DNA of 64,000 nucleotides from Herpetosiphon giganteus (GTDB lineage Bacteria > Chloroflexota > Chloroflexia > Chloroflexales > Herpetosiphonaceae): assembly GCF_016907925.1 (NCBI RefSeq), contig NZ_JAFBCZ010000004.1, positions 1-64,000 of the forward strand, in the 5' to 3' direction. The translations under genes and the position numbers were made by a program. The stretch's first letter is position 1; each line of letters begins with the position of its first letter. The notes beneath the pieces were generated by a model that was given only the letters and a program-made list of their open reading frames with translations, was not told where the DNA came from and made no database searches. Shown here one piece after another: positions 4,391 through 41,381 of this stretch.

Positions 4391-5572
4391 TTAAGGTTTA
4401 TGGCTCACCAATGGATTATAGGTTGTATAGGGCATGGTCGGAGTCCATGCGGCAATATGTCGCCCATCACCAGTACCACTCTCAAGATAAAAGCCAGCAA
4501 TATAGACCTGATGGCCAAGCCCAACGATAGCATCGGTAGAGACTCGATACTGGCTAAACTCAGGCCCAAGCCCTTCCCACCGACTGCCATTCCAGCGGGC
4601 CACATTGCCAGTCTTAACCCCATCAATTGTGTCAAAACTGCCAGTAACATAGATATAACCGCCAATTCGGACCATCGCAAACACCCAAGCACGTGTTGAC
4701 CCTGTAGCATAGCTAGCAGTAAAGGTGCGAGTCGGAGTATTTGCCAGCTCAAAGCGAATTTTTTCCCTAATAAAGCTATAGCGATTAGTGCCCTCACAAA
4801 TCGCCATATTCACCCGCCCTCCACTCACCGCAATAGTTCCGGTTGCTGGTGTATATTTGCGTAGCTCTTCGAGCGTAACAACAACATGTTCATTAACCTG
4901 CATCGCTTCAACATAGGTGAAATATATTCCATCACCACAATGTCGTAAGTCAGCAATCCCCTCAATTCCAGGCCCATCCTCATGGGTTTGCTTAATCGTC
5001 CAAGTTGTGCCATTCCAAATCAGCAAGCTACGATTATTATCAATCATATAAATCTCAGTATTGCTGAGCGCAATATATGAATTAAAACTATTGCCTGGCA
5101 AAGGAGCTACCGGGGTGACATCAACCCATGCCGATCCGTTGAAGGTTGAAACCAGCCGCTGAGGAACTGTTCCGGAACTGCCATAGATTGTATGCAGCGC
5201 ATATAGCCGGCCATCACGGCCTGTTTGTAATTTAGTCCAGCGATTGCTCGCTGTGTTTGCTTGAAGCAGTGTCCACTCTTGGGTTAGCGGATTCCATGCA
5301 CGCAGGGCTTCAGGTTGAGGGTTCGATCCATCCACCCAAGCAATAATATAGACCCGTTCGTTTGCAACGGTCATACTATTGATTTTCATATCTGGGATGT
5401 TAATTGTCGGATGCCATGTCCCTTCCACGAACGCAGCTGGCACTGTCGCAACCATCGCCGCAGCATCATCAGCCTCAGTATTCAAGGCTAACGCTCTATG
5501 TGATCGGGAATCAGGCAGAATGCCCATACTCACAACCAACATCATCATAACGAACTTCAAACCACGACGCAT
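4391..5572 (-). CDS. Secreted beta-propeller-like protein with YxPxV tail
   Basis: A 393-residue exported protein. Residues 1-30 form a Sec signal (basic MRRG, a hydrophobic core, cleavage near ALA). The mature part repeats short blocks of the type W(N/D)G..W and GRLYALHT, IYMIDNN and YVTGSFDTIDG, as in kelch or delta-type propellers that read out measured values. I see no catalytic motif. The last residues, TYNPLVSHKP, resemble the ends of three other secreted proteins here. AAGGAGGAG lies seven bases before the ATG. It is monocistronic, between the palindrome at 4336 and a gene-free 300 bp. Function unknown; cell-surface recognition or structural roles are possible. Confidence 0.75.
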   Translation of the reverse strand: MRRGLKFVMMMLVVSMGILPDSRSHRALALNTEADDAAAMVATVPAAFVEGTWHPTINIPDMKINSMTVANERVYIIAWVDGSNPQPEALRAWNPLTQEWTLLQANTASNRWTKLQTGRDGRLYALHTIYGSSGTVPQRLVSTFNGSAWVDVTPVAPLPGNSFNSYIALSNTEIYMIDNNRSLLIWNGTTWTIKQTHEDGPGIEGIADLRHCGDGIYFTYVEAMQVNEHVVVTLEELRKYTPATGTIAVSGGRVNMAICEGTNRYSFIREKIRFELANTPTRTFTASYATGSTRAWVFAMVRIGGYIYVTGSFDTIDGVKTGNVARWNGSRWEGLGPEFSQYRVSTDAIVGLGHQVYIAGFYLESGTGDGRHIAAWTPTMPYTTYNPLVSHKP

Positions 5573-5872
5573 CTGAACTCCTCCTTAATGTTAGGTGACT
5601 CATCGACCATCGCAATCAATGCCAATATGATGCCTGAATCAGTATGCATTTAAAGCTGAATTCGACCATATCCAAGCTGTGCACAAGCGTTGTAGACACC
5701 CTTCCGACATCATCCTCTATTCTCAATCATGTTTAGCTAGCTATGGATTAATGGTCTTTAAGAATAAAGGATCCAACATTCTATACCTATGCATTGATAG
5801 GCTAAAAGTACTAAATATTTAATGAGGGTTCACGATTGTTGGCCCCTAAACCCTGAACCCTAGTTCCTGCGG
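5573..5872. other. Gene-free interval upstream of the propeller gene
   Basis: About 300 bp, AT-rich, between the start of the gene at 4391-5572 and the terminator of the polyamine operon. It holds no frame with a ribosome site and none of the repeat vocabulary found in the other gaps. A promoter for the propeller gene must be here, but no hexamer pair stands out. Confidence 0.5.
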
Positions 5873-5941: not shown

Positions 5942-7063
5942 TTACTGCGATTTGACCGCCGACCAGACATCGGAGAAGGCGGTGGCATTTTGGCCTTTGC
6001 GCAGCCAATCGAGCCGCTTGCGATCTTCGGCGCTGGGCTTGATCTTAGGGTAAACTGCCTTGAGTTCTTCGCCGATCAATGGCTCAGCTTTAACATTGGG
6101 CGTTAAAGCTGCGGTGAAATCGGCAACTTTGGCAGCAATCTCAGGCCGATTCATAAAATCGATAAAGACTTCGGCGGTATATTGGTTGGGCGTGCCAGCC
6201 ACAATCGCCATCGTATCTTGCCAAATCACGCCGCCCTCTTGCGGAATGACCCACTCGATATTTTCGTTATCGATCATAGCCAAGCCGGTGTAGAGATTCC
6301 ACGATTGAGCCAAGACGACTTCGCCTGAAGCCAAATCTTGATAAACATTATCGCTGTTGTATTTGGCTAACAACGGTTTTTGCTCAAGCAAAACTTTTTT
6401 GGCAGCTTCGAGATCAGCAGGCTCGCTGGAGTTGCGATCTTTGCCCAAAAACAGCATGGCTGCGCCAATCACTTCGCGCTCGTCGTTGAGCATGCTCACC
6501 CGGCCTTTGTAGGCGCTCAGCTGAGCAGGATCAAACAAAATTGACCAGCTGGTTGGGGCTGGCGAAACTGCGGTTTTATCGTAGGCAATGCCGGTGGTTC
6601 CCCACAGGTACGGCACTGAAAATTCGTTGTTTGGATCGTAATACAAGCCCATATTGGCAGGATCGATGTTGGCAACATTTGGAATATTGGCCAGATTGAT
6701 TTTGGCTAAGTAATTGCCCTCGGCCAACAAGGCCACCATATAATCTGAAGGTTGAACAATATCGTAGCCTGAATTGCCAGCCCGAATTTTGGCGGCCATT
6801 TCTTCGTTCGACGAATAGGTATCAACCGTGACTTTTACGCCAAACTCGCTTTCGAAAAGTTGGGGCACATCTTCGGGAATGTACTCGCCCCAAGCGTAGA
6901 TGCGCAGCGTTTCGCTCAGCTTACTGCGATCAACCGAGCCAGAATTGCCCCCAGTTGCCGTGCCAGCTGGCGTGGTTGGCGGCGTGGTGGTTGGGCTGGC
7001 TTCGCCGCAGGCCACCAATAAACTCAGCACCATGAGCAACAGCCCAAAGCGGTTTAGTTTCAT
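5942..7063 (-). CDS. potD: Spermidine/putrescine ABC transporter, substrate-binding lipoprotein
   Basis: The periplasmic-type polyamine receptor of the operon. A lipoprotein signal ends at Cys19 (LLVAC), followed by a Thr/Pro/Gly-rich tether. From about residue 50 the PotD fold begins: LRIYAWGEYIPEDVP, then FEVKVTVDTYSSNEEM-like sequence, YDIVQPSDYMV, NEFSVPYLWGTTGIAYD, NDEREVIGAAM and the C-terminal FIDFMNRPE segment. It captures polyamine and delivers it to PotBC. ATG 7063, with AAGGAG eight bases upstream, is preferred over the TTG one codon earlier. Last gene of potABCD, 31 bases after potC, followed by a strong terminator. Confidence 0.95.
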   Translation of the reverse strand: MKLNRFGLLLMVLSLLVACGEASPTTTPPTTPAGTATGGNSGSVDRSKLSETLRIYAWGEYIPEDVPQLFESEFGVKVTVDTYSSNEEMAAKIRAGNSGYDIVQPSDYMVALLAEGNYLAKINLANIPNVANIDPANMGLYYDPNNEFSVPYLWGTTGIAYDKTAVSPAPTSWSILFDPAQLSAYKGRVSMLNDEREVIGAAMLFLGKDRNSSEPADLEAAKKVLLEQKPLLAKYNSDNVYQDLASGEVVLAQSWNLYTGLAMIDNENIEWVIPQEGGVIWQDTMAIVAGTPNQYTAEVFIDFMNRPEIAAKVADFTAALTPNVKAEPLIGEELKAVYPKIKPSAEDRKRLDWLRKGQNATAFSDVWSAVKSQ

Positions 7064-7097: not shown

Positions 7098-7976
7098 TTA
7101 GGCTTGGCGGCGACGTTGCATCCACAACGAAGTCAGCACCAAGATCGTTGAACCAAGCAGCATCAAGCTTGAGATGGCGTTAATCTCAGGCGAAATAGAT
7201 TTTTTGATTCGCCCGTAAACTTCGGTGGTCAAGGTGTTGACCCCTGGGCCACGAGTGAAAAAGGTTACCACAAAATCATCAAGCGAAAGCGTGAACGAAA
7301 GCAACGCGCCGCCCAAAACCCCAGGCCCAATCAAGGGAAACTTGATCTTCCAAAAGGTTTGCCATGGCGTTGCGCCCAAATCAGCAGCGGCTTCTTCCAA
7401 GCGGCGATCGAAATTGGCCAAACTTGTGCCAACCACAACCGTCACAAACGAAATATTAAACGCCACGTGCGAGATGATCACCGTCCACAAGCCCATCGCC
7501 AAATTCAAACCCAACAAGGCTTGGAATTGGCGAAAAGCCAAGGTGAAGAAACCCAACAGCGAGACAGCCATCACCACATCAGGAATAATGACTGGCAAGT
7601 ATAGGCCTGTATCAAAGGCTTTGCGCCCGCGCCAGCCACGTTTTTCCAAGGCCAAGGCCGCCAAGGTGCCAATTGTCGTGGCAATCACGGTCGATAAACC
7701 AGCAATTTTGAGGCTTGTCCAGAGCGCATCGCCCAAACGGGCATCGGCGAATAGTTCGTTGTACCATTGCAGGGTGAAGCCTTGCCATTGCGCGCCAACT
7801 TTGGCCGCATTGAAGGAGAACAACACCAACACAATAATCGGCACATACAAGAAGGTGTAGACGAAAATCGCATTCAGCGTTAGCGCCCATGTACCCCAAG
7901 GCATGTGCCGTTTGGCCACCGGACGCGAACGCCCGTGCTTGGTTTCAATGCGCTTATCAGCCAGGATTTTCGCCAT
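7098..7976 (-). CDS. potC: Spermidine/putrescine ABC transporter permease PotC
   Basis: An inner-membrane permease of 292 residues with six predicted membrane segments. The first, near residues 30-55, contains TFLYVPIIVLVLFSFN, typical of PotC. The cytosolic EAA loop EEAAADLGATPWQTFWKIKFPLIGP-like region at about 185-210 contacts the ATPase. It forms the channel with PotB. The start overlaps the end of potB; AGGAGG lies seven bases before ATG 7976, so that ATG is preferred over the one directly before it. The first 25 residues are basic and soluble, slightly longer than usual. Confidence 0.95.
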   Translation of the reverse strand: MAKILADKRIETKHGRSRPVAKRHMPWGTWALTLNAIFVYTFLYVPIIVLVLFSFNAAKVGAQWQGFTLQWYNELFADARLGDALWTSLKIAGLSTVIATTIGTLAALALEKRGWRGRKAFDTGLYLPVIIPDVVMAVSLLGFFTLAFRQFQALLGLNLAMGLWTVIISHVAFNISFVTVVVGTSLANFDRRLEEAAADLGATPWQTFWKIKFPLIGPGVLGGALLSFTLSLDDFVVTFFTRGPGVNTLTTEVYGRIKKSISPEINAISSLMLLGSTILVLTSLWMQRRRQA

Positions 7977-8820
7977 CATTCACCTCCTGTGTGGCTTTGA
8001 AATAAAGCAAGATTGCGCCCAAGAGCAGCAGCATAAAGATCATCGAAATTGCCGAGCCATAGGCCCAATTCGAGGCCGAGCCAAATTGTAAACTCAAGCT
8101 GTTGCCCACCATGTTCACGCTCGTGCCGCCCAAAATATCGGAAACGGCAAAAGTTCCGACGGTTGGCACAAAGACCAAAATTGAGCCAGCAGTGATGCCA
8201 GGCAAGGTTTGCGGCAACAGCACGCGCCAAAAAGTTTGGAAGCGGCCAGCGCCCAAATCGCGTGCCGCCTCAAGCTGCACCCAATCGAAGCGTTCAAGCG
8301 CTGCGTACAAGGGCAAAATCATATACGGCAATTCGCCATAGATTAGCGCCATAATCACCGCACTTGGGTTATTGATCATCTGCAACGGGCCAAGATCAAA
8401 TTGATCTAAAAAGCGATTGACCACGCCATTATTGCCAAGCAACACTTTCCACGCGTAAATCCGCACCAGAAAGTTGGTCCAAAACGGAATCATGACTGCA
8501 AGCACCAGCAAACCACGGCGTTTGGGGCTGCGCGTCGCCATAAAAAAGGCAAGCGGATAACTGACCACCAATGTGATCGCCGTCACCACCAGCGCAATCC
8601 AAGTCGAAAGCCAGAGCGTGCGCCAAAACGCGCCATCGGCAAACAGCTTTTGATAATTGGCCAGCGACCAGTTCCACAACACCGTACCATCGTTGGCGCG
8701 GCCTTGGAATGAATAAATGAGAATGAGCACTAAGGGAGCCAAAAAGAAGAAGCCCAACCAAATTAAGGCAGGCGAGGCTTGCAACCAGGCACGGCGTTGC
8801 TCAGTTCGCGCATTATACAT
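7957..8820 (-). CDS. potB: Spermidine/putrescine ABC transporter permease PotB
   Basis: A permease of 287 residues with six membrane helices: an N-terminal LIWLGFFFLAPLVLILIYSF segment, the NFLVRIYAWKVLLGNNG loop typical of PotB and the EAA motif LEAARDLGAGRFQTFWRVLLP near residue 185. It pairs with PotC in the membrane. ATG 8820 is preceded by GGGGGAACT; the frame can be extended to 8850 without a better site. The stop overlaps the start of potC by about 20 bases, indicating coupled translation, and the gap to potA is about 57 bases. Confidence 0.94.
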   Translation of the reverse strand: MYNARTEQRRAWLQASPALIWLGFFFLAPLVLILIYSFQGRANDGTVLWNWSLANYQKLFADGAFWRTLWLSTWIALVVTAITLVVSYPLAFFMATRSPKRRGLLVLAVMIPFWTNFLVRIYAWKVLLGNNGVVNRFLDQFDLGPLQMINNPSAVIMALIYGELPYMILPLYAALERFDWVQLEAARDLGAGRFQTFWRVLLPQTLPGITAGSILVFVPTVGTFAVSDILGGTSVNMVGNSLSLQFGSASNWAYGSAISMIFMLLLLGAILLYFKATQEVNDGENPG

Positions 8821-8877
8821 AGTTCCCCCATGGATGTTGTTTGTTTGCACAAACCAACAAACCTGAGCAGAGTACGA

Positions 8878-9978
8878 TTACCGTTCGAGAATGAGGCTAT
8901 TTTGGGTGGCCCATGTAACATAAACAGGGTCGCCAGCGGTATAGTATTGGTTCGGGTCAAGCGTCGAAACCGTGTTTGCTTCCCACACATCAAACGGCGA
9001 GCCATCAGGCAAACGCACAATAATTCGGGTATCAGAGCCAATATACGCGACTCGCTCAACAATTGCAGCAAAAACGTTTGTACCTTGGGGCTGTTGGCCT
9101 TCAACCAAACGGACTTTCTCGGGCCGGACAGCCAGCACCGCATGATCACCAGCAGCAACCGGAAACATGCCAGTGCCCACAACCCGCACGCCGCCAGTTG
9201 TCTCAAGAGTTACCGCACCGTTTTCAACCGCCATCACCGTACCATCAATAAAATTGCATTCGCCAATAAAATCGGCGACAAAACGCGTTTTGGGGCGTTC
9301 GTAGATTTCGGTTGGCTGGCCAACTTGGAGCACTTTGCCCAATTCCATCACCGCAATGCGGTCGCTCATGGTCAAGGCTTCTTCTTGATCGTGGGTTACG
9401 AAGATAAAGGTAATGCCCAAGCGCTGCTGAATGCTTTTGAGTTCCAATTGCATTTCTTTGCGCAATTTCAGGTCAAGCGCTGCCAAGGGTTCGTCAAGCA
9501 ACAACACTTCTGGCTCGTTGATCAAGGCGCGGGCTAAGGCAACCCGTTGTTGCTGACCACCAGAAAGTTGCTTGGGGCGGCGATCGCCAAATGCATGCAG
9601 TTGCACCATATCCAGCGCTTGCTTCACGCGGGTGGCAACATCAACCTTGTTGATCTTTTTCATGTGCAGGCCAAAGGCCACATTTTCAGCCACCGACATA
9701 TGTGGAAATAGGGCATAGCTTTGAAAAACGGTATTCACATCGCGCCGATTGGCAGGCGTTTCGCCCATCAACTCGCCTTCGATGTAAATATCGCCACTAC
9801 TGGGGTTTTCAAAGCCAGCGATCATGCGGAGTAGCGTGGTTTTACCACAGCCAGAGGGGCCAAGTAGGGAAAAAAATTCACCGTCCGCGATTTTTAAAGA
9901 AACATCACGAACGGCTGTGCTGCCGCGAAATTCTTTGGTTACGTGGTCAAGTTCCACCGCCCAAGTGGGTGTGTTCAT
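8878..9978 (-). CDS. potA: Spermidine/putrescine ABC transporter ATPase PotA
   Basis: A 366-residue ABC ATPase with Walker A GPSGCGKTT near residue 40, Q-loop VFQSYALFPHM, signature LSGGQQQR near 138, Walker B VLLLDEPLAALD and the switch His in FVTHDQEEAL. A TOBE domain occupies the last 100 residues, as in PotA and other CUT-type ATPases. It powers polyamine uptake through PotBC. First gene of the operon; AAGGAGG lies about a dozen bases before the ATG. A perfect TATAAT on the minus strand at 10052-10057 gives a leader of about 67 nt. Without the linked potD, a generic iron/thiamine/spermidine label would be the limit. Confidence 0.96.
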   Translation of the reverse strand: MNTPTWAVELDHVTKEFRGSTAVRDVSLKIADGEFFSLLGPSGCGKTTLLRMIAGFENPSSGDIYIEGELMGETPANRRDVNTVFQSYALFPHMSVAENVAFGLHMKKINKVDVATRVKQALDMVQLHAFGDRRPKQLSGGQQQRVALARALINEPEVLLLDEPLAALDLKLRKEMQLELKSIQQRLGITFIFVTHDQEEALTMSDRIAVMELGKVLQVGQPTEIYERPKTRFVADFIGECNFIDGTVMAVENGAVTLETTGGVRVVGTGMFPVAAGDHAVLAVRPEKVRLVEGQQPQGTNVFAAIVERVAYIGSDTRIIVRLPDGSPFDVWEANTVSTLDPNQYYTAGDPVYVTWATQNSLILER

Positions 9979-10051
9979 TGCAGTGCGTGCCTCCTTAGTG
10001 CGCGAACCAACCCTCCTGAATCATGCAAGATGCATACCATTTGGATGCTGA

Positions 10052-10057
10052 ATTATA
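10052..10057 (-). promoter_or_regulatory. Probable -10 element of potABCD
   Basis: TATAAT on the minus strand, 74 bases before the potA start. The region 17 bases upstream has no recognisable -35 box and instead carries the palindrome CTAGATCTAG (about 10076-10085), which could be an operator or chance. The assignment rests on the -10 match and the position. Confidence 0.4.
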
Positions 10058-10092
10058 CACCGTTTTTCGCATATTCTAGATCTAGGGTAAGC

Positions 10093-10197
10093 GGCAAAAG
10101 GCAGAAGGCAAAAGGCAAAAGTCAAAAGTCAAAAGTCAAAAGTCAAAAGTCAAAAGTCAAAAATCAGAAATCAGAAATCAGAAATCAGAAATCAGAA
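10093..10197. repeat. In-phase heptanucleotide array, 15 units
   Basis: Fifteen consecutive 7-mers keep perfect register. Three GGCAAAA and one GGCAGAA form the first four units, followed by six GTCAAAA and then five ATCAGAA. The change of unit occurs in blocks, which suggests successive slippage or duplication. The array lies directly upstream of the potABCD promoter and continues into the composite repeat region. It resembles the short tandem heptamer repeats described in filamentous cyanobacteria. Confidence 0.95.
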
Positions 10198-10200
10198 ATT

Positions 10201-10492
10201 AAAACCGCGAAGAACACGAAGAGCCACGAAGATTTATTTTTCGCCACAGATTCCACAGATTAGCCCAGATGGATTGTTTGATAGCCTAATTTCCTAATTT
10301 CCTATGTTCTATGCTCTATGTTCTATCGATACCTCTGCGCCACTGCGTTAAAAATGTGATCCACGAAGCGCACGAAGAGCCACGAAGATTTATTTCTAGC
10401 CACGAATTCCACGAACAATATTCCGCTAGCCCAAAGCCAATAGCCTCGTATCTCTTGTTGTTTTCTGCCTTCATCCTTCATCCCTCATCCTT
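10201..10492. repeat. Composite intergenic repeat region
   Basis: The 290 bp after the heptamer array hold no gene. They contain CACGAAG-based nonamers (10208-10231 and 10361-10412), a CCACAGATTCCACAGATT unit (10243-10260), CTATGTT/CTATGCT heptamers near 10303-10327, the phrase CTCTGCGCCACTGCGTTAAAAA, and a run of CATCCTT/CATCCCT heptamers that ends at the stop codon of the next gene. Each of these phrases recurs in other gaps of the window. Confidence 0.8.
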
Positions 10493-11257
10493 TTAAAGCA
10501 TGCTTTGCACAATATCGTAGCCATAGCGCAAAATCACCCCAACCACAACGACGAGAAAGATTATTCGCACAAATTGACTGCCTTTGGCCAGCGCCATGCG
10601 CGAGCCAATAATTCCCCCAACAATATTGCAAACCGCCATTGGTAGCGCCAAGTGCCAGATAATTTGGCCAGCACTAAGAAATTGGACTAAAGCTGCAACA
10701 TTGGTGGTTACATTAATGATTTTGGTCGAGGCCGAGGCTTGTAGAAAATCGAAGCCCAAAATGCCTACGAAGGCAAACATCAATAAACTGCCAGTGCCTG
10801 GCCCAAAAATCCCATCGTAGAAACCAATTAGGCCGCAAAAACCCAAAACATACGGCATTGGCCGCGCCGAGGCTTTGGTTTGGCGGGCAGCGCTGCCAAA
10901 ATCTTTCCGTTTAAATGTATAAATTGCCATCGCAATAATTAACAGCAGCATAATTGGCCGAAATAGCTCTGGCCTAATCAAGCTAACAGCTCGCGCCCCG
11001 AGCCACGAGCACAACGCTGCGCTCAGCATGCCCGGCCCAATGATCCGCCAGTTGACCTTCACCCGCCGATTGTAATTGACCGCCGCCGTGGCGGTGCCGG
11101 TTACTGCTGCAAATTTATTGGTTCCCAGCACAAGTGCAGGTGCAACATCTTTTTGCAAAATCAACAAGGGCGGTAGTTGAATCAGGCCGCCGCCACCAGC
11201 CACTGCATCAATAAACCCTGCCAACAAGGCAAAAGCACAAAGAATTAATAAGCTCAT
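10493..11257 (-). CDS. TSUP family permease (TauE/SafE type)
   Basis: A 254-residue membrane protein with about seven to eight hydrophobic helices. The family hallmarks are GFIDAVAGGGGLIQLPPLL in the first helix pair and the second-half repeat GFYDGIFGPGTGSLLMFAFV. TSUP proteins export or import organosulfur compounds and organic acids such as sulfite, sulfoacetate or taurine-derived anions; the substrate here cannot be told. The start ATG overlaps the end of the pseudouridine synthase gene upstream, so the two are cotranscribed without an obvious functional link. The stop codon lies directly against the CATCCTT heptamers of the repeat region. Confidence 0.9.
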   Translation of the reverse strand: MSLLILCAFALLAGFIDAVAGGGGLIQLPPLLILQKDVAPALVLGTNKFAAVTGTATAAVNYNRRVKVNWRIIGPGMLSAALCSWLGARAVSLIRPELFRPIMLLLIIAMAIYTFKRKDFGSAARQTKASARPMPYVLGFCGLIGFYDGIFGPGTGSLLMFAFVGILGFDFLQASASTKIINVTTNVAALVQFLSAGQIIWHLALPMAVCNIVGGIIGSRMALAKGSQFVRIIFLVVVVGVILRYGYDIVQSML

Positions 11258-12297
11258 AGCGCTGGGTTTCCTGTTTGCACAAATTCAGCTTGCAGATCAA
11301 TTCCCACTGCATCCCCAACTTCGTGCCAAAGGTTCGGCACTGGCGCGGTTAGCTCCAGCGTTGAGCCATAACGCGGATGGGGAAATTGCAGCCATGCAGC
11401 GTGTAATAATTGCCCAGTCACGGTTAAATTACCAAGCTGAGTTAAGCCGCCATAGCGTTGATCGCCAACCAATGGATGGCCAACATGCAGTGCATGCAAG
11501 CGAATTTGATGGGTGCGGCCAGTGTGCAAACGGGCGGCCAATAAAGCTGCTTGTGTGCCTGTCGCCCGCACTGTAAAACTGGTATGCGCCCGCCGCACCC
11601 GCCGATCCTTCGGGCCATACAATTGATCAATCATCGCCTCAGGATAGACCGACCACAAGCCATGTTCGCCGCGTGAATGGCCAGTTACAACCTCTAATTC
11701 GCGCCATGTTGGCACGCCGTTAGCCAGCGCAAGGTAGGTTTTTCCAACCCGACCTTCATTAAACATGCGCTGAAACCGGCTGTTGAGGCTTGGGTTTTTC
11801 GAGACGATCAATGCGCCCGAAGTACCATGATCGAGCCGATGAACCAAGTGAAATGGCACCGCCTCGCCATCACGCTGGAGGAAAAAGCGCGCCAATGCCC
11901 CTTCGAGATGACCAAAGGTATCCCATGGCGTAGCCACGCTATACCAAGCGGCGGGCTTGTTCAGCACCAAAATCCATTCATCCTCAAACATAATTTCGGC
12001 TGGAGTAACAATTGGGTTGGCATATAAACCAGCTGGCGGCGTATGCACTACCAATTCACCTGCTGGCGGGGTTTCGGCAAAGGGATCATTAACCCGCACA
12101 CTGTTGATCCAAATTGCACCGCGCACCATCAGGGTTTGGGCCAAGGTAGCGGAAAGCTGCAAACGCTCAATTAACAGTTGCCATAATGGCAGCCCTGCGG
12201 TTGGTGGTTCGAGGGTTAATTTAACAGGGTACTGTGCGGCTAAATCGCACAGTACCCGTTGATCAAGCGCCGACAATTCGGCTAATGGGTCGAACAC
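11254..12297 (-). CDS. RluA family RNA pseudouridine synthase
   Basis: A 347-residue RluA-type enzyme. The catalytic motif HRLDHGTSGALIVSK near residue 150 holds the Asp that attacks uridine C1', and LHTGRTHQIRLHALHVGHPLVGD marks the C-terminal half of the fold. The first 100 residues contain a degenerate S4-like segment (LQLSATLAQTLMVRGAIWINSVRV) that would bind RNA. It is a paralogue, not a duplicate, of the RluD-like protein at 36131. The start appears to be GTG 12297, 12 bases after the glycosidase stop, with a weak ribosome site. Target site in rRNA or tRNA unknown. It overlaps the TSUP gene downstream. Confidence 0.9.
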   Translation of the reverse strand: MFDPLAELSALDQRVLCDLAAQYPVKLTLEPPTAGLPLWQLLIERLQLSATLAQTLMVRGAIWINSVRVNDPFAETPPAGELVVHTPPAGLYANPIVTPAEIMFEDEWILVLNKPAAWYSVATPWDTFGHLEGALARFFLQRDGEAVPFHLVHRLDHGTSGALIVSKNPSLNSRFQRMFNEGRVGKTYLALANGVPTWRELEVVTGHSRGEHGLWSVYPEAMIDQLYGPKDRRVRRAHTSFTVRATGTQAALLAARLHTGRTHQIRLHALHVGHPLVGDQRYGGLTQLGNLTVTGQLLHAAWLQFPHPRYGSTLELTAPVPNLWHEVGDAVGIDLQAEFVQTGNPAL

Positions 12298-12309
12298 AAT
12301 CTATCCGTT

Positions 12310-14391
12310 CTATTTGTTGAACAGCACCAATGGATTGTAGAGGGTATAGGCGCTGTCGTCGGTTGCAAACCGCAAGAGCGTGATTGAGTAGGCTGGCAGC
12401 GTGACGGTTGTGGTTTCGCCCACATCAGTCAATTCGATCGTCTGCGCATTACTAAAATCATCGTTCACATTGGTTTGACCATTATACGTGATTGTGGTCG
12501 CATCGAGGCTTGCAGCTTGGGCAACATCAATTGAGCCAGAAACTGCTGGAATGACCGACCCGTCTGCGCGAAGTTGCACATTGGTGGTCGTAGCTTGGCC
12601 AGTTTTATTAATCGCCATCAGCGAGATCGTGTTGCCATCGCTGCCAGCATAGAAGCTAATTTGGGTTGCTGCATCAGCATCGCTGGTATATTCAAGCAAG
12701 CGATTACCGAAAAACTGCCACAAGTGGAAGGCATAATATTGGGGGCTGCGGGTGTAGCTTGGCACATCGCCAATCAAACCATAATCGGTACCATTGGTTT
12801 GGACATTACCATTCAACAGCCAATGGTTCGCCGCCAACACATCGCCTTGAATAATTTGGCCAGTCGTATCGGCAATAAACAACATATTCAGCGCTTTGGT
12901 CATCATCGCTTGCGGATCGTAAGGCCAGCCAGCGCTCAAATTGTATTCGCCAACCATAATTGGAATCTCGCGGCCTTCAGCAAAATCGGCGATTGCTTGG
13001 CGGGTGCTAGCAAACACTTCGGGCCATTGCTTTTGCGGGCGCGAAAGCATCAAATAGCGACCCAAGGCATCGTTGTTTGGCACATCAACAAATGAATAGG
13101 GGTGAATCGCGATGTAATCAATGATGTCGCCGCCCTCGGTCAAGACCTTGGTTGTCCAGTTGTTGAATTCGGTTGGGTTGGCCAAGGCGGTAACGCCAAC
13201 CATAATCGTTGGATCGACGAGCTTCATCGCAGCCCGAACGTCGATATAGCCCTCGTGGCGCTCAGGCGTTGTCAAACCGTTGATATATTCAGCGCCATCA
13301 CAGGTCCAGCCAACTTCCCAGCCTTGGACACATGATCCATAGGTTTCGTTGCCAAAATCCCAATATTTGATGCCGACTGGAGCAGGGTTGCCATGGCTGG
13401 CCCGCAGTTGCGCCCAATAGCCAACCGTGCGCCAATCTACGCCTTTGTGATCGGTTCCAAGCGCCCGTTGATCGTTGACTTCACCGTTGAAGAAAGCTAC
13501 TAAGGCAGCGGCTTCGCCCGAGGTGACGTTGGTATTGATCGTCCAAATTGCGTCGCGACCAGTTGCGCTCAAAAACTCAATAAAATCGGTTGGGGTCATG
13601 GCCCATTCATAATTACATGGCCATGCATTGGCAATCGTGTTGCCAGCCCCCAATTCGCAGTTGATTGCGCCATGATCTTGGCTCATCGAGCCGCCAGGCA
13701 AGCGAATCGTCATATTGCCCAAAGCACCACTGCGTGCAAGAAAGGTTGGATTAGCCGCAGCTTCCACGCCCCACATGCCGTAGTTGGTGCCTAATGCGTT
13801 GCGAGCATTAAAATCAAGCACTGTTTGATCGGTATCAATCGTCACATTAACGGTACCTGGAGGCGCAAAATCAACCACATTCAGCGTAATATCATCGAGA
13901 TAAAAGGTTGGTTGGGCTACGCCCGTAGATTCTTGCAGATTGATTCGCGAAACGGCGCTGGGATTGCCCAACTGAGCCATGGTCAATTGAACTTGAGTCC
14001 ATTGGCCAGCAGGCGCATTAATCAACACTGGCGTGACAATATTGCCACCATCGGTAGTGGTAACGCCAGCATTAAATTGGGTGCCACCAGTGCCGCCATA
14101 CACCCAAAAACTAATGCCCGTCAAGGCCTCAGCTGGAATTAACCCAGGCGAGTGCAGCGAAAAACCGCCCCAAGCTTCAAAGGTCACAGCCGTTGATTTC
14201 GTGCCAGTATGCGCTTGGGCTGTGCTATCAAACGCTACCGCTGTACTCCACGACCAATTCTGCCAACCGGTTGCCAAGGCTTCATCAAACACAATTGAAG
14301 TTCCGGTTGGAACTGCGGTATGTGCCCGCGTTGAACCAAGCCATGCGACACCCAACACCATCAGCAGCGAAAGTTGAACCAAACGTCGCAT
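12310..14391 (-). CDS. Secreted GH51-like (arabinofuranosidase-type) glycoside hydrolase with YxPxV tail
   Basis: A 693-residue exported protein. Signal peptide 1-24 (MRRLVQLSLLM... cleaved near THA). A jelly-roll, CBM-like domain spans about 25-180 (FDEALATGWQNWSW...FYLDDITL). A (beta/alpha)8 domain follows, with the clan GH-A acid/base Glu in KYWDFGNETYG and a nucleophile Glu in IMVGEYNLS, as in alpha-L-arabinofuranosidases. A beta-rich C-terminal domain ends in LYNPLVLFNK, the tail shared with other secreted proteins here. ATG 14391 has AGGAGG six bases upstream; the longer frame from 14412 runs over that site. It would release arabinose or a related sugar from plant-type polymers outside the cell; the specificity is inference. 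Confidence 0.82.
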   Translation of the reverse strand: MRRLVQLSLLMVLGVAWLGSTRAHTAVPTGTSIVFDEALATGWQNWSWSTAVAFDSTAQAHTGTKSTAVTFEAWGGFSLHSPGLIPAEALTGISFWVYGGTGGTQFNAGVTTTDGGNIVTPVLINAPAGQWTQVQLTMAQLGNPSAVSRINLQESTGVAQPTFYLDDITLNVVDFAPPGTVNVTIDTDQTVLDFNARNALGTNYGMWGVEAAANPTFLARSGALGNMTIRLPGGSMSQDHGAINCELGAGNTIANAWPCNYEWAMTPTDFIEFLSATGRDAIWTINTNVTSGEAAALVAFFNGEVNDQRALGTDHKGVDWRTVGYWAQLRASHGNPAPVGIKYWDFGNETYGSCVQGWEVGWTCDGAEYINGLTTPERHEGYIDVRAAMKLVDPTIMVGVTALANPTEFNNWTTKVLTEGGDIIDYIAIHPYSFVDVPNNDALGRYLMLSRPQKQWPEVFASTRQAIADFAEGREIPIMVGEYNLSAGWPYDPQAMMTKALNMLFIADTTGQIIQGDVLAANHWLLNGNVQTNGTDYGLIGDVPSYTRSPQYYAFHLWQFFGNRLLEYTSDADAATQISFYAGSDGNTISLMAINKTGQATTTNVQLRADGSVIPAVSGSIDVAQAASLDATTITYNGQTNVNDDFSNAQTIELTDVGETTTVTLPAYSITLLRFATDDSAYTLYNPLVLFNK

Positions 14392-14567
14392 CCATTGCCT
14401 CCTGATCATCATCGAACATAGCTTGATTATAGTAAAAAAAATCTAAAGAATATACTTAAAAAATTTAGTAATTATTCACTAAAAGAAGGCGCTGGGGATG
14501 GGAGGGTAGGGATCAGGTGTCAGAGATCGGTGATCAGGGGCTGGGGATCGGCGAAGGTTTTAAGATC

Positions 14568-14923: not shown

Positions 14924-14948
14924 CGCAGCCAAAGCAAGGAGGTTTGCC

Positions 14949-15656: not shown

Positions 15657-15658
15657 AC

Positions 15659-28903: not shown

Positions 28904-31900
28904 CTACTTCACAACATACGGCATATAGACCTTATATTGGCTAACTGGCGCACTAGTTGCGGTTGAAACTAAGCTAATGCTATTGCTTGCACCACTATCA
29001 GCGCTTGAGGTTGCAGTTACGGTTACGCTATCGGTCGTGTTAGCAACCGCATTGGCTGGAATCGTCACCACAACTTGGACGCTCGTGCTCGCGCCTGCGG
29101 CCAAGCTGACGCTGGTTTGACTCAAGTTGGTTGGCCATGCATTGCCGCTCACGCTCAGGTTGAAGCTATCGCTCACATTGCCGGTGTTGGTAATGTTCAC
29201 CGTATAGGTCAGCGTCGAGCCAGCAACTCCACTCTGAGCAGTTTGAGGAGTCTGCACTGCCACATCATGCACAGTTGAATTTCCAATCGTAAACACAACT
29301 GGCACCGTTTGATCGCCATTCACCGTGTTGGCTCCTGCGTTGACCCGCAAGCGCGCACGATAGGTACCATTAGCAATTCCATTGCTGTTGGCGGTTACTT
29401 GCACGTTTGCTGAGCCACGCGCTGCCACATCAACCGAGGTTGGATTCCAGCTCAGCCACGAGGCGCTGCCAGCATAGGCAACAAATTGAATTGCCAAATT
29501 GCTATGCAAACGGCCAGTGCTGTTGTAGACCCATTGGAAGCCAGAAGCTCCAGTGCTATCTTCGATGCCCACGCTGACGCTATTTTGGGTATCAACCGTT
29601 TGATATTGCAAGGTAATATCGCCACTGTTCAGATCCAGCACAAATTGGAAATCTTCAGGGCTGAAGCTGCCGCCGCTAGCCCAGTGGGGTACACCACTAA
29701 ATTCAACAATAAATTGATCGTTAGCGCTATCAGCATAGGTAAAGATCCCATCCACGCCACTGGTCAAATCGCTGGGATCAAGGTCATCCCACAAAGCGGC
29801 AATCACATTATTTGGCGCTGTGGTGCCAGGTACCACGCCGTTGGTCGACGTGCCCGAGGCACTACAGGTCGTGGCATTGGTTGGGCTGATAAAGCCGTTA
29901 CTATTCACAATCAACTTGCTATAGCCGCTGCCATAGTACATGAAACTGCGTGGCAAGTTCACAATCACACAGGCATCATCGCCCAAATTGAGCCGCGTGC
30001 CAGTGCTGCTGATGTCGTTCCAGTTATAGCTTGGGCCACCAACATCGTCGCTGCTCTTAACTTCGTAACCCATTGGAGCCAGCGTGATATTTGCATTAAA
30101 ACTAGTGCCACCAGCATTGCCAATCACTAAAGTTCGCTCTTGGCTACCATCGCTTACGTTGAAATTCAAGGCGTTGGGCGTGGTCGTCAAAGCCGCCAAT
30201 TGCGCAAGCACCAGATCTTGATTGGTAAAGCTGTTGCTGCTAACCGTTATGGTGTAGCTTGCTGGCGTTAAGCCCGTGCCGCTTACTTTGACACTATAGC
30301 TGCCAACTGGCAGTTCCAAGCGATAGCTGCCATCGCTGGCGCTGGTGGTGGTGCTAGTAAACGTGCCAGTCGTTGCCACGATCGTGGCATTGGCAATTGG
30401 CTGATTGTTATCGCTCGCGCGCACAACCCCGGTTAAGCCTTGCGGCGCAACATCGAGCCATTGAGCGCTAACCGGTCCCCAGTTGCCAGCAGTATCGCGG
30501 CCCCGGAAGTAGACCAAGTGACGGCCATTGCTCAACGTTTGGGGAATCGTCGCATTCACTGCTTCTTGAAGACCATTGAAACTTCCATCAGTGGCGTTTA
30601 GGCTAATCGCAGTTGCGCCAGCCCGCCATGGTGGAGTATCAACATAGGCTTCAGCAGCAGCAATCGTTTGAGCGCCGTTGTTAGCATCGTTGATTGTTGC
30701 CGACAATTTGTAGCCATTACTCGCCGATTGGGTGGTGACGTTCAAGGCATCAGGGCCACGTTGCAACAAATAAGGCGAACGAGCTACTTTCGAGGCATAC
30801 AAGAACGCTGGCAAGTTGCGGCCCCAGAAGTTGCCTTGGGGTTGGCCATCCAAACAGGTAAAGTTCGGGAAGAAACCACTACATGAGCCAGAGCCTGGCC
30901 CAACTTCAAAGGTGTACGAGGCAATCCCCAATTCGCCATAGGCCCAATCATCGGTCGTGCCGCTGGTTGGATACAGCTCGTCGGACTTTTGCGGCGTATA
31001 GCCATTGTAGCTGGCAAATTTCTTACCCAAACCACGCAAATCGGCATCGTTTGGCGCAAGTTGGGCTGAGTGACCATAGGGCCACAAGACCAAATCGCTA
31101 TACGAGTGAATGGAGATATAGACCCCTGCCGTATCGTCTGGCGCAGGATCAGTATCTGCTGGGCCACGGCGATCAGCAAACACCCCGCGAATCCATTGTT
31201 GCAAGGTAGCAACTTCTGGCTCAGAAGCGGCTGAAAGCCCAGGCCAAGTCTCGCCACAACGCGGTCCATTTGGGCTATCGACTTCGCCCCAATGGAATGA
31301 TGAGTTGCGGTTGAGGTCGATCCCAATTTGCACCCCACTACAGTTTGGGGTATCAACGGTATTACGATTTTTGCGTTGGGTAAACGATGAGCCTTGCTCG
31401 GCAATCTTGCGTCCATCGGGGTTGACGAAGGGCACAATCACAATCGTGTGCTCATCAAGCAACCAATGCACATCAGGATCGGTTGCATAGCGTGAGAGCA
31501 AATACTCAGTGTAGCGCAAGGTCAATTCAGCGGTTGACATTTCGCGCGCGTGAATTGCCGACATCAAGAAGAAGGTTGGTTTTGGCCCAGGAATCAACGA
31601 ATTGGTGATCGTAATCCCACGCAAATCGTAGCCTGCTGGCCCACCAGCGGTCACTTTATCCCACGAAGCGCCATAGGTAAACAACCCAGTCAGGTTGGGA
31701 TACGTTGCATGCCATTGTTCAAGCAAAGCATAGCCTTCTTCGACCGTACGAAAGCCACCTTGAACTGGCAAGATTGAAGGCATTTGCAGCAAGTCGGTTT
31801 GTTCTTGATCAATTGCTGCGGTAAAGCCATCTTGCTGCAATTTAGCCAATTCGCTTGGCGTAATTAGCGCAAACAGATCGTCTTTATCGCGCATTTCCAA

Positions 31901-32098
31901 TAAATCAAGGCCACGTGCGCTTAGGGCCAATGATTCACTTCGATCTTTGGCCTGAATTCGTGCCACAACCCGTTGTTCTTCGACAACTGGCTGGGCTTCG
32001 GTGCGTTTTGGCAGCGAAACCACCACCAAACTACTCCAAACCCCAATCAGCGCCACGATTGTTCCAATTAACGACCAACGATGCCTCAGACGGTCCAT
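28904..32098 (-). CDS. Secreted M14 zinc carboxypeptidase with multidomain C-terminus and YxPxV tail
   Basis: About 1064 residues. After an N-terminal signal anchor (residues 8-30) and a propeptide-like region comes the M14 domain (about 110-440): zinc ligands in HAREMSTAE, ligand His in SIHSYSDL, substrate-binding NRNSSFHWG and catalytic Glu in YTFEVGPG. Then follow a CarboxypepD_reg-like fold (LTGVVRASDNNQPIANATI), a beta-rich region (LNFNVSDGSQERTLVI onward) and an NEW3-like domain before the tail YKVYMPYVVK. It removes C-terminal residues from extracellular peptides, fitting a predatory or scavenging lifestyle. ATG 32098 has GGAGG eight bases upstream; the GTG at 32113 overlaps that site. 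Confidence 0.92.
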   Translation of the reverse strand: MDRLRHRWSLIGTIVALIGVWSSLVVVSLPKRTEAQPVVEEQRVVARIQAKDRSESLALSARGLDLLEMRDKDDLFALITPSELAKLQQDGFTAAIDQEQTDLLQMPSILPVQGGFRTVEEGYALLEQWHATYPNLTGLFTYGASWDKVTAGGPAGYDLRGITITNSLIPGPKPTFFLMSAIHAREMSTAELTLRYTEYLLSRYATDPDVHWLLDEHTIVIVPFVNPDGRKIAEQGSSFTQRKNRNTVDTPNCSGVQIGIDLNRNSSFHWGEVDSPNGPRCGETWPGLSAASEPEVATLQQWIRGVFADRRGPADTDPAPDDTAGVYISIHSYSDLVLWPYGHSAQLAPNDADLRGLGKKFASYNGYTPQKSDELYPTSGTTDDWAYGELGIASYTFEVGPGSGSCSGFFPNFTCLDGQPQGNFWGRNLPAFLYASKVARSPYLLQRGPDALNVTTQSASNGYKLSATINDANNGAQTIAAAEAYVDTPPWRAGATAISLNATDGSFNGLQEAVNATIPQTLSNGRHLVYFRGRDTAGNWGPVSAQWLDVAPQGLTGVVRASDNNQPIANATIVATTGTFTSTTTSASDGSYRLELPVGSYSVKVSGTGLTPASYTITVSSNSFTNQDLVLAQLAALTTTPNALNFNVSDGSQERTLVIGNAGGTSFNANITLAPMGYEVKSSDDVGGPSYNWNDISSTGTRLNLGDDACVIVNLPRSFMYYGSGYSKLIVNSNGFISPTNATTCSASGTSTNGVVPGTTAPNNVIAALWDDLDPSDLTSGVDGIFTYADSANDQFIVEFSGVPHWASGGSFSPEDFQFVLDLNSGDITLQYQTVDTQNSVSVGIEDSTGASGFQWVYNSTGRLHSNLAIQFVAYAGSASWLSWNPTSVDVAARGSANVQVTANSNGIANGTYRARLRVNAGANTVNGDQTVPVVFTIGNSTVHDVAVQTPQTAQSGVAGSTLTYTVNITNTGNVSDSFNLSVSGNAWPTNLSQTSVSLAAGASTSVQVVVTIPANAVANTTDSVTVTATSSADSGASNSISLVSTATSAPVSQYKVYMPYVVK

Positions 32099-32263
32099 AC
32101 AAACGACCTCCACACAGTGCGAGCCTAGCGCCGTGCCAGAATCTCCTTCGATTGTTACGCTAGGGAAGTTCTTGGGGAAAAACGACTCTTCGTTAAGTGT
32201 CTATTTTATCATTTTTAAGTATTTATAATGCAGCCTTGGCGATATGCGATTAAGTGATGTATT

Positions 32264-38774: not shown

Positions 38775-38795
38775 TAACGCGTTTTAGCAAAAGCT

Positions 38796-41381
38796 TTATT
38801 TACCAACAACTGGCAGATAGAGTTTGTTGTTGACCACAGTCACGACGAAGGTTTGCTCGAAGCTATCTTCGCCATCATCAACCGTTACGGTGATGGTGGT
38901 TGTGCCAGTTTGGCCTGCGGCTGGAGTCAAGGTCAATGTCCGTTCAGCGCCAGTGCCCTCAATTGTGATATTGGCATTTGGCACCAAAGCCGTGTTTGAT
39001 GATTCAGCAGTAACCGTCAGGTTATTGACGCTATCATCAACATCGGTCAAGGTAAACAAAATTGGGCCAAGCGTTGAATTGATGGTAATCGTTTCATCAA
39101 CGAAGCTTGAAAGCTCAGGCGCATCGTTGACCGCGTTGACCGTCAATTGCACTGTGCGCGTTACCGTGCTCAAGCCATCGCCAATCGTGAAGGTCAGGCT
39201 GGTGTTGCCCGAAGCATTCAATGCTGGCGCAATGGTAAAGGTACGGGTGTAGGCATCAGTGCCAGCAGTCACCACAATATCGCCATCGGCAACCAAATCT
39301 TGGTCGCCAGAAACGGCAGTAATCGTAATATCGCGAGCTGCGGTATCGTTGTCGATCGCCCCAACCTGAACCGTGACTGGGGTATCTTCATCGGTGGTTA
39401 CGCTGGTTACGTTGCCGGTAGCGTTTGGTTTGTCGTTGACCACAACCACAAAGGTATCGCTAGCTGAGCCTTGGCCAGTGACCCGCACCTGAATCGTTGC
39501 CGTGCCATAGCGGCCAGCAGCAGGCGTAACCGTGATGTTGCGCGTCGTGCCCGTGCCAGTAATCGAAATATTGGCATTTGGCACTAAAGTGACGTTCGAT
39601 GAGGTTGCAGCCAACGTGACCGTCGTCGTATTGGGGTTGGTGACAAAGCGTGGGTCGACAATTTGGAAACTCATCGGCCCAGTCGTGCCATTCTCGACCA
39701 CAATGACATCAGCAATATCGTCGATTTGGGTTACGTCAAGCAAGCGATCTTCAATGGTTGGCATAATTGGCTGATGCTCATCGATGTATTCCAACACCAC
39801 ATCGGCCATAACCGCTAAGGTCGTGCCTTTACCATCGTTCAGCATGGTATAGCCGTCGCCACCAGCGTTGGTAAAATCGTTGGTTGCCAAGGTGTAAATC
39901 GAGGTCGTGTTTGAAAGCACCTGCGTGCCATCATTCAAGGTAATCGATTGGACTTGTTGGCCAATCGCCTTCGATGAATCAAAGGTTACTTTGAAGCCCG
40001 AAACTTGGGGGAAGCGACCATTTGCGCCAGGCAAAGCGCCCAAGCCAAATTCCATCACTTGCCACAATTGGCCACCAGTTACGGTGCGGGTTACAACGGT
40101 ATTGCCAAATGGCAGCACGGCGTAAATATCACCCAACACCAAATCGTAGCTTGGGCCAGCTGGATAGCCAACGCTCGCGCGGCGCAAGTTGCGGTTCATT
40201 GGGGTATACGATGATGGCAAGGTATCGCGCAAGCCACCGCCATTGGTAAAGGCGATTTGGGTGCCATATTTCTCGCGCATTGCATCGGTGACTAAATTGC
40301 CCAATGGCACTTCGGCTACCCGTTCGACGTTGTTGCCACGGGTGTAGAAGCCATGGCTCAAACCAATTGGCGTATCAAATTGTTGGGCCAATTGCGCACG
40401 ATAAGGCACCAACATCGCTTCGATTGCCGCATCTTTGGGCACATTCGCGGTTGGCGTTACAAAGGTAGCGCTCTTGTTGGTTACCGTTTCGGTGGTGGTA
40501 TCGTAGGTCAAATTAACCTTCAGATACTGCAAACCTTTGCTCTTATTTTCGGTAACCAAGGCACCGTTGATCGTATTTTGGAAGTTTAAGTCGGTGTGAT
40601 CGCCTAAGATCAAGTCGAAGCCAGTCACGCCGTTAGCAAAATCGATCAATGGCCCTTGATTTGGGGCGGTAATCCCTTTGTGGGTAATCACCACAAATAC
40701 ATCAGCACCAGCTGCCTCGGCTTGAGCCTTGGCATTCATCGCCGCATCAATCGAATCGGTAATTTGAATTGGCCCAAAATTGCCTGGCTTCACCAAGCTT
40801 GGGGCTTCTTCGTTTACCAAACCAATGACCGCAACTTGCACACCTTGGAATTCGAAAATTTTGTAGGGTGCTACGCCCGTCAACACGCCAGTGGTGTTGA
40901 TCAAGTTGGCGGCTACATACTGGAAGGGAATCCCGTTGTTGTAGCTTGAGCCAGGGGTTAATGGCGCGGTTGGCGAGCCAGCCAATTCGATCATCTGTTG
41001 CAAGTGGCCAACGCCACGGTCGAAGTTATGGTTGCCAAAGGTATTCACCTGAATACCCATCATGCGTTGGGCCAACACTGCTGGCACTTCGTCAAACATC
41101 CCCGAAAGTGGCGGCGTAGCGCCAAAATCATCACCAGCGGTCAAGGTAATGGTGTTGGGGTTCGCAGTGCGATCAGCATTCCAATAGGTTGCAATTGTGG
41201 AAGCGCCCCCAGCCGCTGGCGTACCACTTGGGTCGAGTTGCCCGTGCCAGTCGGAAACATTCAAGAGTTGAATGTCGACGACTGCAATCGGCGCGGCACT
41301 GGTCAAGGTTGAGCTAAGCGGAACAAGCGCACTCAAGATGGCGCAGAGAGCAACAAGGACAAGCAGTTTTCGTTTCGTCAT
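38796..41381 (-). CDS. Secreted 5'-nucleotidase/UDP-sugar hydrolase family protein with beta repeats and YxPxV tail
   Basis: 861 residues. Signal peptide 1-29 (cleaved near TSA). A calcineurin-like domain (about 36-280) has the metal motifs NVSDWHGQ, AGDDFG, GNHNFDRG and VITHKG. A 5'-nucleotidase C-terminal domain spans about 340-545 (PLGNLVTDAMREKYG...FTNGGGLRD). Three to four immunoglobulin-like repeats of the NDAPE/DEDTPVTVQV type follow, up to the tail NNKLYLPVVGK. It probably releases phosphate or nucleosides from nucleotides outside the cell. Two motifs are altered: the usual GNHEFD has Asn in place of Glu, and the GHTH motif reads GDHTD, so metal or substrate preference may differ. No clear ribosome site. 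Confidence 0.9.
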   Translation of the reverse strand: MTKRKLLVLVALCAILSALVPLSSTLTSAAPIAVVDIQLLNVSDWHGQLDPSGTPAAGGASTIATYWNADRTANPNTITLTAGDDFGATPPLSGMFDEVPAVLAQRMMGIQVNTFGNHNFDRGVGHLQQMIELAGSPTAPLTPGSSYNNGIPFQYVAANLINTTGVLTGVAPYKIFEFQGVQVAVIGLVNEEAPSLVKPGNFGPIQITDSIDAAMNAKAQAEAAGADVFVVITHKGITAPNQGPLIDFANGVTGFDLILGDHTDLNFQNTINGALVTENKSKGLQYLKVNLTYDTTTETVTNKSATFVTPTANVPKDAAIEAMLVPYRAQLAQQFDTPIGLSHGFYTRGNNVERVAEVPLGNLVTDAMREKYGTQIAFTNGGGLRDTLPSSYTPMNRNLRRASVGYPAGPSYDLVLGDIYAVLPFGNTVVTRTVTGGQLWQVMEFGLGALPGANGRFPQVSGFKVTFDSSKAIGQQVQSITLNDGTQVLSNTTSIYTLATNDFTNAGGDGYTMLNDGKGTTLAVMADVVLEYIDEHQPIMPTIEDRLLDVTQIDDIADVIVVENGTTGPMSFQIVDPRFVTNPNTTTVTLAATSSNVTLVPNANISITGTGTTRNITVTPAAGRYGTATIQVRVTGQGSASDTFVVVVNDKPNATGNVTSVTTDEDTPVTVQVGAIDNDTAARDITITAVSGDQDLVADGDIVVTAGTDAYTRTFTIAPALNASGNTSLTFTIGDGLSTVTRTVQLTVNAVNDAPELSSFVDETITINSTLGPILFTLTDVDDSVNNLTVTAESSNTALVPNANITIEGTGAERTLTLTPAAGQTGTTTITVTVDDGEDSFEQTFVVTVVNNKLYLPVVGK

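Follow-up and report, generated by a model that had tools for sequence, protein, structure and literature searches.

The YLP-box tail of exported Chloroflexota proteins: a candidate C-terminal sorting or retention tag examined from four proteins of Herpetosiphon giganteus

Here, we present an analysis of a short C-terminal tail with the core Y-x-P-x-V on four exported proteins encoded in one stretch of the Herpetosiphon giganteus genome (RefSeq assembly GCF_016907925.1, contig NZ_JAFBCZ010000004.1, positions 1 to 64,000 of the forward strand). This stretch of 64,000 nucleotides, referred to as the window (G000:C4:1-64000), belongs to a host genome of 6.16 Mb. A sequence-only reading of the window had taken the tail for a C-terminal sorting, anchoring or assembly signal of a nameless system.

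Results

All four C-termini, read from translated open reading frames (ORFs), are exactly those given in the sequence-only reading, and the four proteins, which are unrelated to each other, are all exported according to our heuristic classifier. Proteins and tails are encoded as follows:

4391..5572, minus strand: exported protein, 393 aa (ORF and N-terminus)
4394..4420, minus strand: its tail, YNPLVSHKP (ORF read; no NCBIfam YLP-box match)
12310..14412, minus strand: exported glycosidase-like protein, 700 aa, weakly similar to the arabinosylfuranosidase ArfA
12313..12339, minus strand: its tail, YNPLVLFNK (ORF read; no NCBIfam YLP-box match)
28904..32113, minus strand: exported M14 zinc carboxypeptidase with CarboxypepD_reg and Ig-like domains, 1069 aa (Pfam, ORF and N-terminus)
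28907..28927, minus strand: its tail, YMPYVVK (ORF read; no NCBIfam YLP-box match)
38796..41381, minus strand: exported 5'-nucleotidase with cadherin/Ig domains, 861 aa (Pfam, NCBIfam, ORF and N-terminus)
38799..38819, minus strand: its tail, YLPVVGK (NF053834 ultrashort_CTERM, 14.1 bits, cut-off 10)

The start codons of two of these genes were placed slightly differently from those in the earlier reading. The 393-aa protein matches no Pfam family at E≤0.001, and the glycosidase-like protein matches NF051901 with an E-value of 7e-9 and 35 bits, the cut-off being 625. In the M14 carboxypeptidase, it is the Ig region and not the tail that matches an S-layer model named PACE-CTERM (NCBIfam, E≤1). 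The tail of the 5'-nucleotidase is YLPLVGK and YLPVVGK in two orthologues from the same genus. Within the window, the tail is present on 4 of 7 signal-peptide proteins compared with none of the 49 others (3 lipoproteins, 20 membrane proteins and 26 cytosolic proteins).

The supposition that no named system has this motif did not hold. Release 20.0 of NCBIfam contains two models, NF050076 (sort_motif_YLP) and NF053834 (ultrashort_CTERM), both entitled "YLP-box putative sorting motif-containing protein"; the motif is already known to the NCBIfam curators, whose reading of it as putative sorting is the same as ours, and the window adds divergent members. The NF053834 match reaches to the final residue of the 5'-nucleotidase and exceeds the curated cut-off, and membership in the YLP-box family is firm for this one of the four window tails. 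The models describe the same motif at the same C-terminal place on exported proteins; however, they name the motif only and give no partner, and three of the four window tails are without a match. The tails of three proteins from other loci (L280, L018 and L011) likewise gave no match to a YLP-box model. In the open-licence literature, we found no publication describing the YLP tail.

The sequence-only reading had proposed a comparison of secreted and cytosolic proteins, and this comparison revealed a clear excess on secreted proteins. Genes and signal peptides were called with simple home-made heuristics rather than Prodigal or SignalP. In stretches of the host genome outside the window, picked regardless of tails, a broad YxPxV-type ending was found on 8 of 36 signal-peptide proteins compared with 2 of 358 others (Fisher's test, p=9e-8), and the strict Y.P.V form on 3 of 36 compared with 1 of 358 (p=0.003). 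The two tailed "others" (L002 and L010) seem to be exported proteins whose start was called too late. We then pooled the blind stretches from Chloroflexales (window included) and from G095, a further genome of our panel. In the signal-peptide proteins of this pool, the last 12 residues held 14 occurrences of the core motif, compared with 7 at other places in their 35,517 residues, a terminal excess of roughly a hundredfold per position by our own arithmetic on 87 proteins. The corresponding terminal and internal counts were 4 and 41 in cytosolic proteins (207,066 residues), 2 and 53 in membrane proteins (159,446 residues), and 1 and 4 in lipoproteins (15,154 residues). The four tails are real and not the product of chance.

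The signal was weaker in the blind stretches from the other Chloroflexales alone, in which the broad ending was found on 3 of 44 signal-peptide proteins compared with 8 of 691 others (p=0.024) and the strict form on 0 of 44 compared with 3 of 691. At least three of those eight (L060, L072 and L264) seem to be exported proteins with a tail and a missed or truncated start, and others look like chance. In stretches from two genomes outside the class (G103 and G191), the tail was present on 1 of 20 signal-peptide proteins and 3 of 211 others; because G191 holds matches to the tail models despite this poor count, such samples can miss tails.

Across relatives, the tail has the consensus (V)-Y-L-P-L-V-x-[R/K]-COOH. 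Among 133 collected C-termini, the respective positions are Tyr in 114, Leu in 118, Pro in 133, Val in 114 and Arg or Lys in 112, and the residue before Tyr is V/L/I; all 133 were selected by the motif, a few chance-looking ones included, so these counts describe the motif and do not test it. In the blind set, 12 of 24 tails continue for exactly two residues beyond the Val, and the others for three, four or seven. The tail is strongly conserved in relatives rich in it: in stretches chosen around tail matches, 15 of 23 signal-peptide proteins (G196) and 6 of 13 (G010) are tailed, fractions that are not prevalences.

The cargo is highly diverse. We analyzed 68 tail proteins, i.e., 75 references minus three that look like chance (L073, L075 and L106 5163), one near-copy (L150), and three that were left out for no good reason (L165, L173 4016 and L185). 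Together, these 68 proteins match 111 Pfam families, the commonest of which is found in only five proteins. At E≤10, NF050076 matches 25 of the 68 and NF053834 matches 15. The cargo domains include DUF11, CarboxypepD_reg, PPC, RCC1, FG-GAP, beta-helix, Ig, lectin-like and peptidase domains; many of the proteins are large and multi-domain, and P/T-rich linkers precede some tails. Cargo is not confined to Sec-type proteins: the protein L011 761-2050, which scores over the TIGR01409 cut-off for Tat-type signals, ends in SYLPMARR, and the PDIAV_lipo (NF053835) lipoprotein L090 16257-17576 ends in YLPLVRK. The tail is also present on the lipoprotein L106 9308-10228, and M23 domains occur in 2 of the 68 proteins; the earlier remark that the tail is absent from lipoproteins and from the M23 peptidase is correct inside the window and does not hold in general. 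In Candidatus Chloroploca asiatica, four consecutive genes are tail-bearing (L091 7818-16480, plus strand).

No transmembrane helix accompanies the tail. In an AlphaFold model of L280, a peptidase C25 protein (13 sequences), pLDDT is below 50 at residues 857-866, and in an AF2 model of the C-terminal fragment of the 5'-nucleotidase (a shallow alignment of 3 sequences) at residues 200-204; based on these models, the tail is likely disordered. The possibility that the tail is simply the last strand of one shared domain, raised in the sequence-only reading, is contradicted by the 111 families over 68 proteins: the tail is a modular linear motif.

We determined the distribution of the tail in a panel of 201 Chloroflexota genomes using a codon-degenerate pattern (Y-L-P-h-V-x-[K/R and some others]-stop) with the backwards pattern as the control; this pattern demands Leu, Val and two final residues, and it under-counts variants such as the YNPLV tails of the window. 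At least one match was found in 54 of the 201 genomes. In the window's order, Chloroflexales, 20 of 21 genomes were positive, with up to 16 matches compared with 0 for the control; the host genome had five matches compared with one for the control. In the two other families of the class, the pattern was found in 0 of 5 genomes. Elsewhere in the panel, G009 had nine matches, G095 four, G079 and G142 three each, and G120, G148 and G180 two each; the remaining genomes had at most one, close to what the control gave.

A scan of approximately 85,000 genomes with a stricter, codon-specific pattern, which favours GC-rich codons and under-samples AT-rich genomes, identified 90 stretches. Among the matches listed, 74 of 80 are from Chloroflexota and span Chloroflexales, Thermoflexales, Caldilineaceae, Anaerolineales, Ardenticatenia and others; two of the 74 (L189 and L190) lie in frames of just 19 and 27 codons. 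Two of the six non-Chloroflexota matches listed lie in frames of 14 and 17 codons. Another, L172, is on a contig filed under Elioraea and has the same last 19 residues as the Roseiflexus protein L193, pointing to what is probably a binning error. Three more are L146, L161 and L180; the YLPLVxR genes L146 and L161 sit in contigs filed under Scytonema and Gracilibacteria, respectively. Among the matches listed, the tail is nearly restricted to Chloroflexota.

Two further features of the window lie between the tail genes. The region 17762-28290 (minus strand) looks, by reading, like an amino-sugar utilisation cluster with genes for a SIS-domain protein, a deacetylase, an acetyltransferase, a beta-hexosaminidase, an ABC transporter with a lipoprotein, a ROK kinase and a ROK regulator, and two small genes at 16844-17621 (minus strand) look like a VapBC-type toxin-antitoxin module.

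Discussion

We suggest that the tail is a YLP-box, i.e., a short linear C-terminal address tag that is docked after export and retains or assembles exported Chloroflexota proteins, and we consider this reading probable. The tail would be read after export because cargo of different export routes share it and nothing holds it in the membrane. Most likely, a receptor of the cell envelope or surface layer that binds peptides would take up its free C-terminus, and docking would retain or assemble the tagged protein at that site; we give a covalent step a lower probability. The best leads to the reader are a tail-bearing C25 peptidase and a group of LPXTG-like DUF11 proteins, anchored in the wall, whose genes neighbour tail genes. 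Enrichment, position and cargo diversity thus uphold the core of the earlier proposal, a modular signal of the sorting or retention type on exported proteins, while its description as a nameless system is to be dropped.

Several observations weigh against this reading. We infer sorting from position and distribution; no receptor for the tail was found; and genes and signal peptides were called by heuristics of our own in samples that cover approximately 9% of the host genome. Because the lipoproteins among the cargo have an anchor already, the tail may not serve for retention alone. Three of the window tails have no YLP-box match, even as 40-residue fragments, although HMMER filters may hide weak ones, and NF050076, searched in six frames, matches 10 of 14 unrelated control genomes at E≤10 and exceeds its cut-off in two of them. 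In the model of the 5'-nucleotidase fragment, the last Ig strand (residues 183-193) is followed by a short strand (196-198) that takes in Tyr198 of the tail, and low pLDDT with only 13 and 3 sequences is a weak sign of disorder.

As the sequence-only reading had argued, the tail is distinct from LPXTG signals, PEP-CTERM and the C-terminal domain (CTD) of the type 9 secretion system (T9SS). Like an LPXTG/sortase signal, it is C-terminal, has an LP core and a basic end, and is found on exported cargo; however, the LPXTG signal has a transmembrane helix, whereas the four window tails end 2-4 residues after the Val. Separate LPxT-type proteins with a helix do occur in genomes of the window's order. 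PEP-CTERM, GlyGly-CTERM and MYXO-CTERM are likewise described as genome-wide C-terminal tags on otherwise unrelated proteins, the MYXO-CTERM tag being described as tripartite. These tags are longer and have a membrane-spanning helix, which the YLP tail lacks. No PEP-CTERM model is among the NCBIfam matches of the four window proteins at E≤1. In the T9SS of Bacteroidota, too, exported proteins of many kinds, C25 peptidases among them, have their signal at the C-terminus, and a PorU-like C25 peptidase co-occurs with the YLP tail; however, the T9SS CTD is a folded domain (PF18962, 75 positions), whereas the YLP tail has 7-9 residues. None of 26 genomes from the window's order has a Por_Secre_tail (PF18962) match, and TIGR04183 has no match at E≤1 in the four window proteins and weakly matches 2 of the 68 tail proteins (best 0.017).

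The strongest alternative is that the tail is a covalent processing signal, i.e., that a PorU-like C25 peptidase or a C60 sortase cuts it and joins the protein to the wall or a glycan, as PorU does in type 9 secretion. We regard this as rather unlikely; the phyletic profile speaks in its favour. A strong match to Peptidase C25 (PF01364, E<1e-50) is present in 29 of the 201 genomes, including 18 of the 18 with at least three tail-pattern matches. Outside the order, C25 was found in 4 of 4 such genomes compared with 6 of 176 (p=5e-6). Over the whole panel, a threshold of two matches gives 22 of 26 compared with 7 of 175. Defining tail-rich genomes instead by a six-frame search with NF050076 that yields 12 or more matches at E≤10, a count that includes internal and chance matches, C25 is present in 20 of 21 compared with 9 of 180 others; at a threshold of eight, the numbers are 22 of 27 and 7 of 174. 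These co-occurrence statistics ignore shared ancestry. The C11 cargo peptidase, our control, co-occurs less tightly (15 of 21 tail-rich genomes compared with 8 of 180 others). The sharpest co-occurring enzyme is the gingipain/PorU-type C25 peptidase; the sequence-only reading had suggested looking for a membrane protease or transferase, but we found no membrane transferase, and this peptidase is a secreted protein. Two genomes, G191 and G133, have tails without a match to PF01364 or the PorU model, which counts against the covalent alternative. G191, a single contig with 17 matches to the YLP-box models, is the one tail-rich genome without C25 and hence the most telling exception in the search for a partner. 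G156 has 14 such matches and C25, with no sortase match and no match to the degenerate pattern.

The C25 proteins themselves point both ways. In 13 aligned proteins, the catalytic dyad (H713 and C754) is invariant, in favour of the covalent alternative, and by sequence the best PDB relative of the C25 profile is PorU (9.8e-26, compared with 1.4e-10 for RgpB). The PorU model aligns with L280 over model positions 4-738 of 1095; however, the match is under the cut-off, and the cut-off of NF033707 (PorU), 420 bits, was missed by five C25 proteins (169-218 bits) and in all 5 of 18 genomes with a match (best 278 bits). Arg722 is described in one report (PMC4560394) as the feature separating PorU from gingipains. 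The position aligned to it, 32 residues after the Cys, is Gly in 13 of 13 aligned proteins and, by reading, also in L256 and L291; this comparison covers 15 Chloroflexota C25 proteins, none of which has the Arg, and leaves out the loci L274, L275, L278, L281, L287 and L288. Fold comparison of the L280 model gave a Z-score of 27.8 over 322 residues for RgpB, and of 16.1 over 540 residues with an rmsd of 7.2 for PorU; the modelled catalytic domain is nearer RgpB than PorU in fold. In the same model, residues 262-384 align with CBM35/CBM36 carbohydrate-binding modules (Z about 10-11), and L280 may bind a surface glycan.

Moreover, the conserved C25 protein ends right after its catalytic domain in a relaxed tail, in which the Pro is invariant, the last residue is K/R in 13 of 13, and the aromatic residue is kept in only 6 of 13. 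Most C25 copies end in some form of tail; the protein L291 of G009 has none at its end. Because C25 proteins are mostly tailed themselves and C11 co-occurs too, part of the association is just cargo. Given the Gly at the Arg722 position and the gingipain-like fold, C25 is more likely an active gingipain-like protease, itself cargo, than a transpeptidase. With Arg722 absent where checked, and G191 and G133 tailed without C25, we rejected a PorU-type transpeptidase as the tag reader and keep it as a rival only.

The case for a sortase in the covalent alternative rests on presence and neighbourhood. Sortase (PF04203) matches are found in all 26 genomes with at least two tail-pattern matches and in 20 of 21 tail-rich genomes, the one without being G156, in which 14 tail-model matches and C25 thus stand without a sortase. 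However, sortase is present in 138 of 201 genomes, including 118 of the 180 that are not tail-rich, and is also common in tail-less families. Sortases of Chloroflexales fall into several clades, some of which adjoin LPxT-type helix proteins, and in a tree built on a partial sample of the matches (41 rows, 33 different), no clade was common to the tail genomes of Chloroflexales and other classes and absent from tail-less genomes. Being too widespread, in part paired with their own LPxT-type helix proteins and without a private multi-class clade in the partial tree, sortases were rejected as the reader. Two further candidates were also set aside, DUF11 as a phyletic marker (in 132 of 201 genomes, too common) and PDIAV_lipo (NF053835) as a partner (over the cut-off in only 5 of 201; a cargo family).

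C25 or tail genes do adjoin genes for sortases or LPXTG-type DUF11 proteins, which favours the covalent alternative. In L107, a DUF11 protein ending in LPNTS and a helix (6181-6963) is encoded directly before the tail-bearing C25 gene (7250-9979), and the coordinates place DUF11 frames next to the C25 gene in a further ten genomes of the order (G020, G037, G045, G069, G077, G101, G117, G175, G182 and G196). In the host genome, a C25 protein ending in YLPLTIAAP is followed by a sortase and then a protein ending in IPATG and a helix (L256, G000:C1:271001-291000). This cluster (7445-16872, minus strand) also holds a small PqqD-like frame and radical SAM-like and S26 signal-peptidase-like proteins; C25 and sortase are named from Pfam, the others from reading the sequence. 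At a second host locus (L257), a tail protein ending in YMPAVVR is followed by a DUF11-helix protein, two further genes and a sortase. Judging from this arrangement, DUF11 proteins anchored in the wall may be partners of the tailed proteins at the surface. A last point speaks against covalent processing: where R/K is the last residue, no segment lies beyond it to be released. Altogether, docking of an address tag remains our preferred reading. More speculatively, Chloroflexota without a T9SS may have a stripped-down analogue of it, in which tail-bearing PorU-like C25 and sortase-anchored DUF11 proteins would process or dock cargo with a 7-residue tag on the wall, and another clan CD or sortase-type enzyme would serve in G191; we regard this as improbable.

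It is similarly improbable that the tail is a secretion or folding aid, i.e., a hydrophobic-basic peptide for an export chaperone or for membrane release with no role in final location. Such a function would fit a C-terminal tail that is linked to export and found on many large multi-domain proteins. Against it, the tail is also present on a Tat-type protein, Tat cargo crosses the membrane folded, and many of the listed exported proteins without a tail are small by impression. Finally, chance convergence or the last strand of beta-rich domains, suggested by the shortness of the motif, by the many cargo proteins ending in Ig-like or DUF11 domains and by the short strand that reaches the Tyr in the 5'-nucleotidase model, is very improbable given 14 terminal compared with 7 internal motifs in the 35,517 residues of the same proteins, and a tail that caps linkers, propellers, peptidases and a Tat protein alike.

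In conclusion, sorting or retention is the best reading of the tail, in agreement with the YLP-box models. New here are the restriction to one phylum, the range of cargo (Sec-type, Tat and lipoprotein), the co-occurrence with a PorU-like C25 peptidase and the limits of this association, and divergent tails not matched by the existing models. To our knowledge, it is not understood how filamentous, gliding and predatory Chloroflexota place their surface proteins. A 7-residue tag on approximately one fifth of the signal-peptide proteins sampled in the host genome (8 of 36) would rank among the shortest C-terminal sorting signals known; from it, many unannotated proteins can be predicted to lie at the cell surface or in the matrix, and the candidates for its reader are reduced to a set that can be tested.

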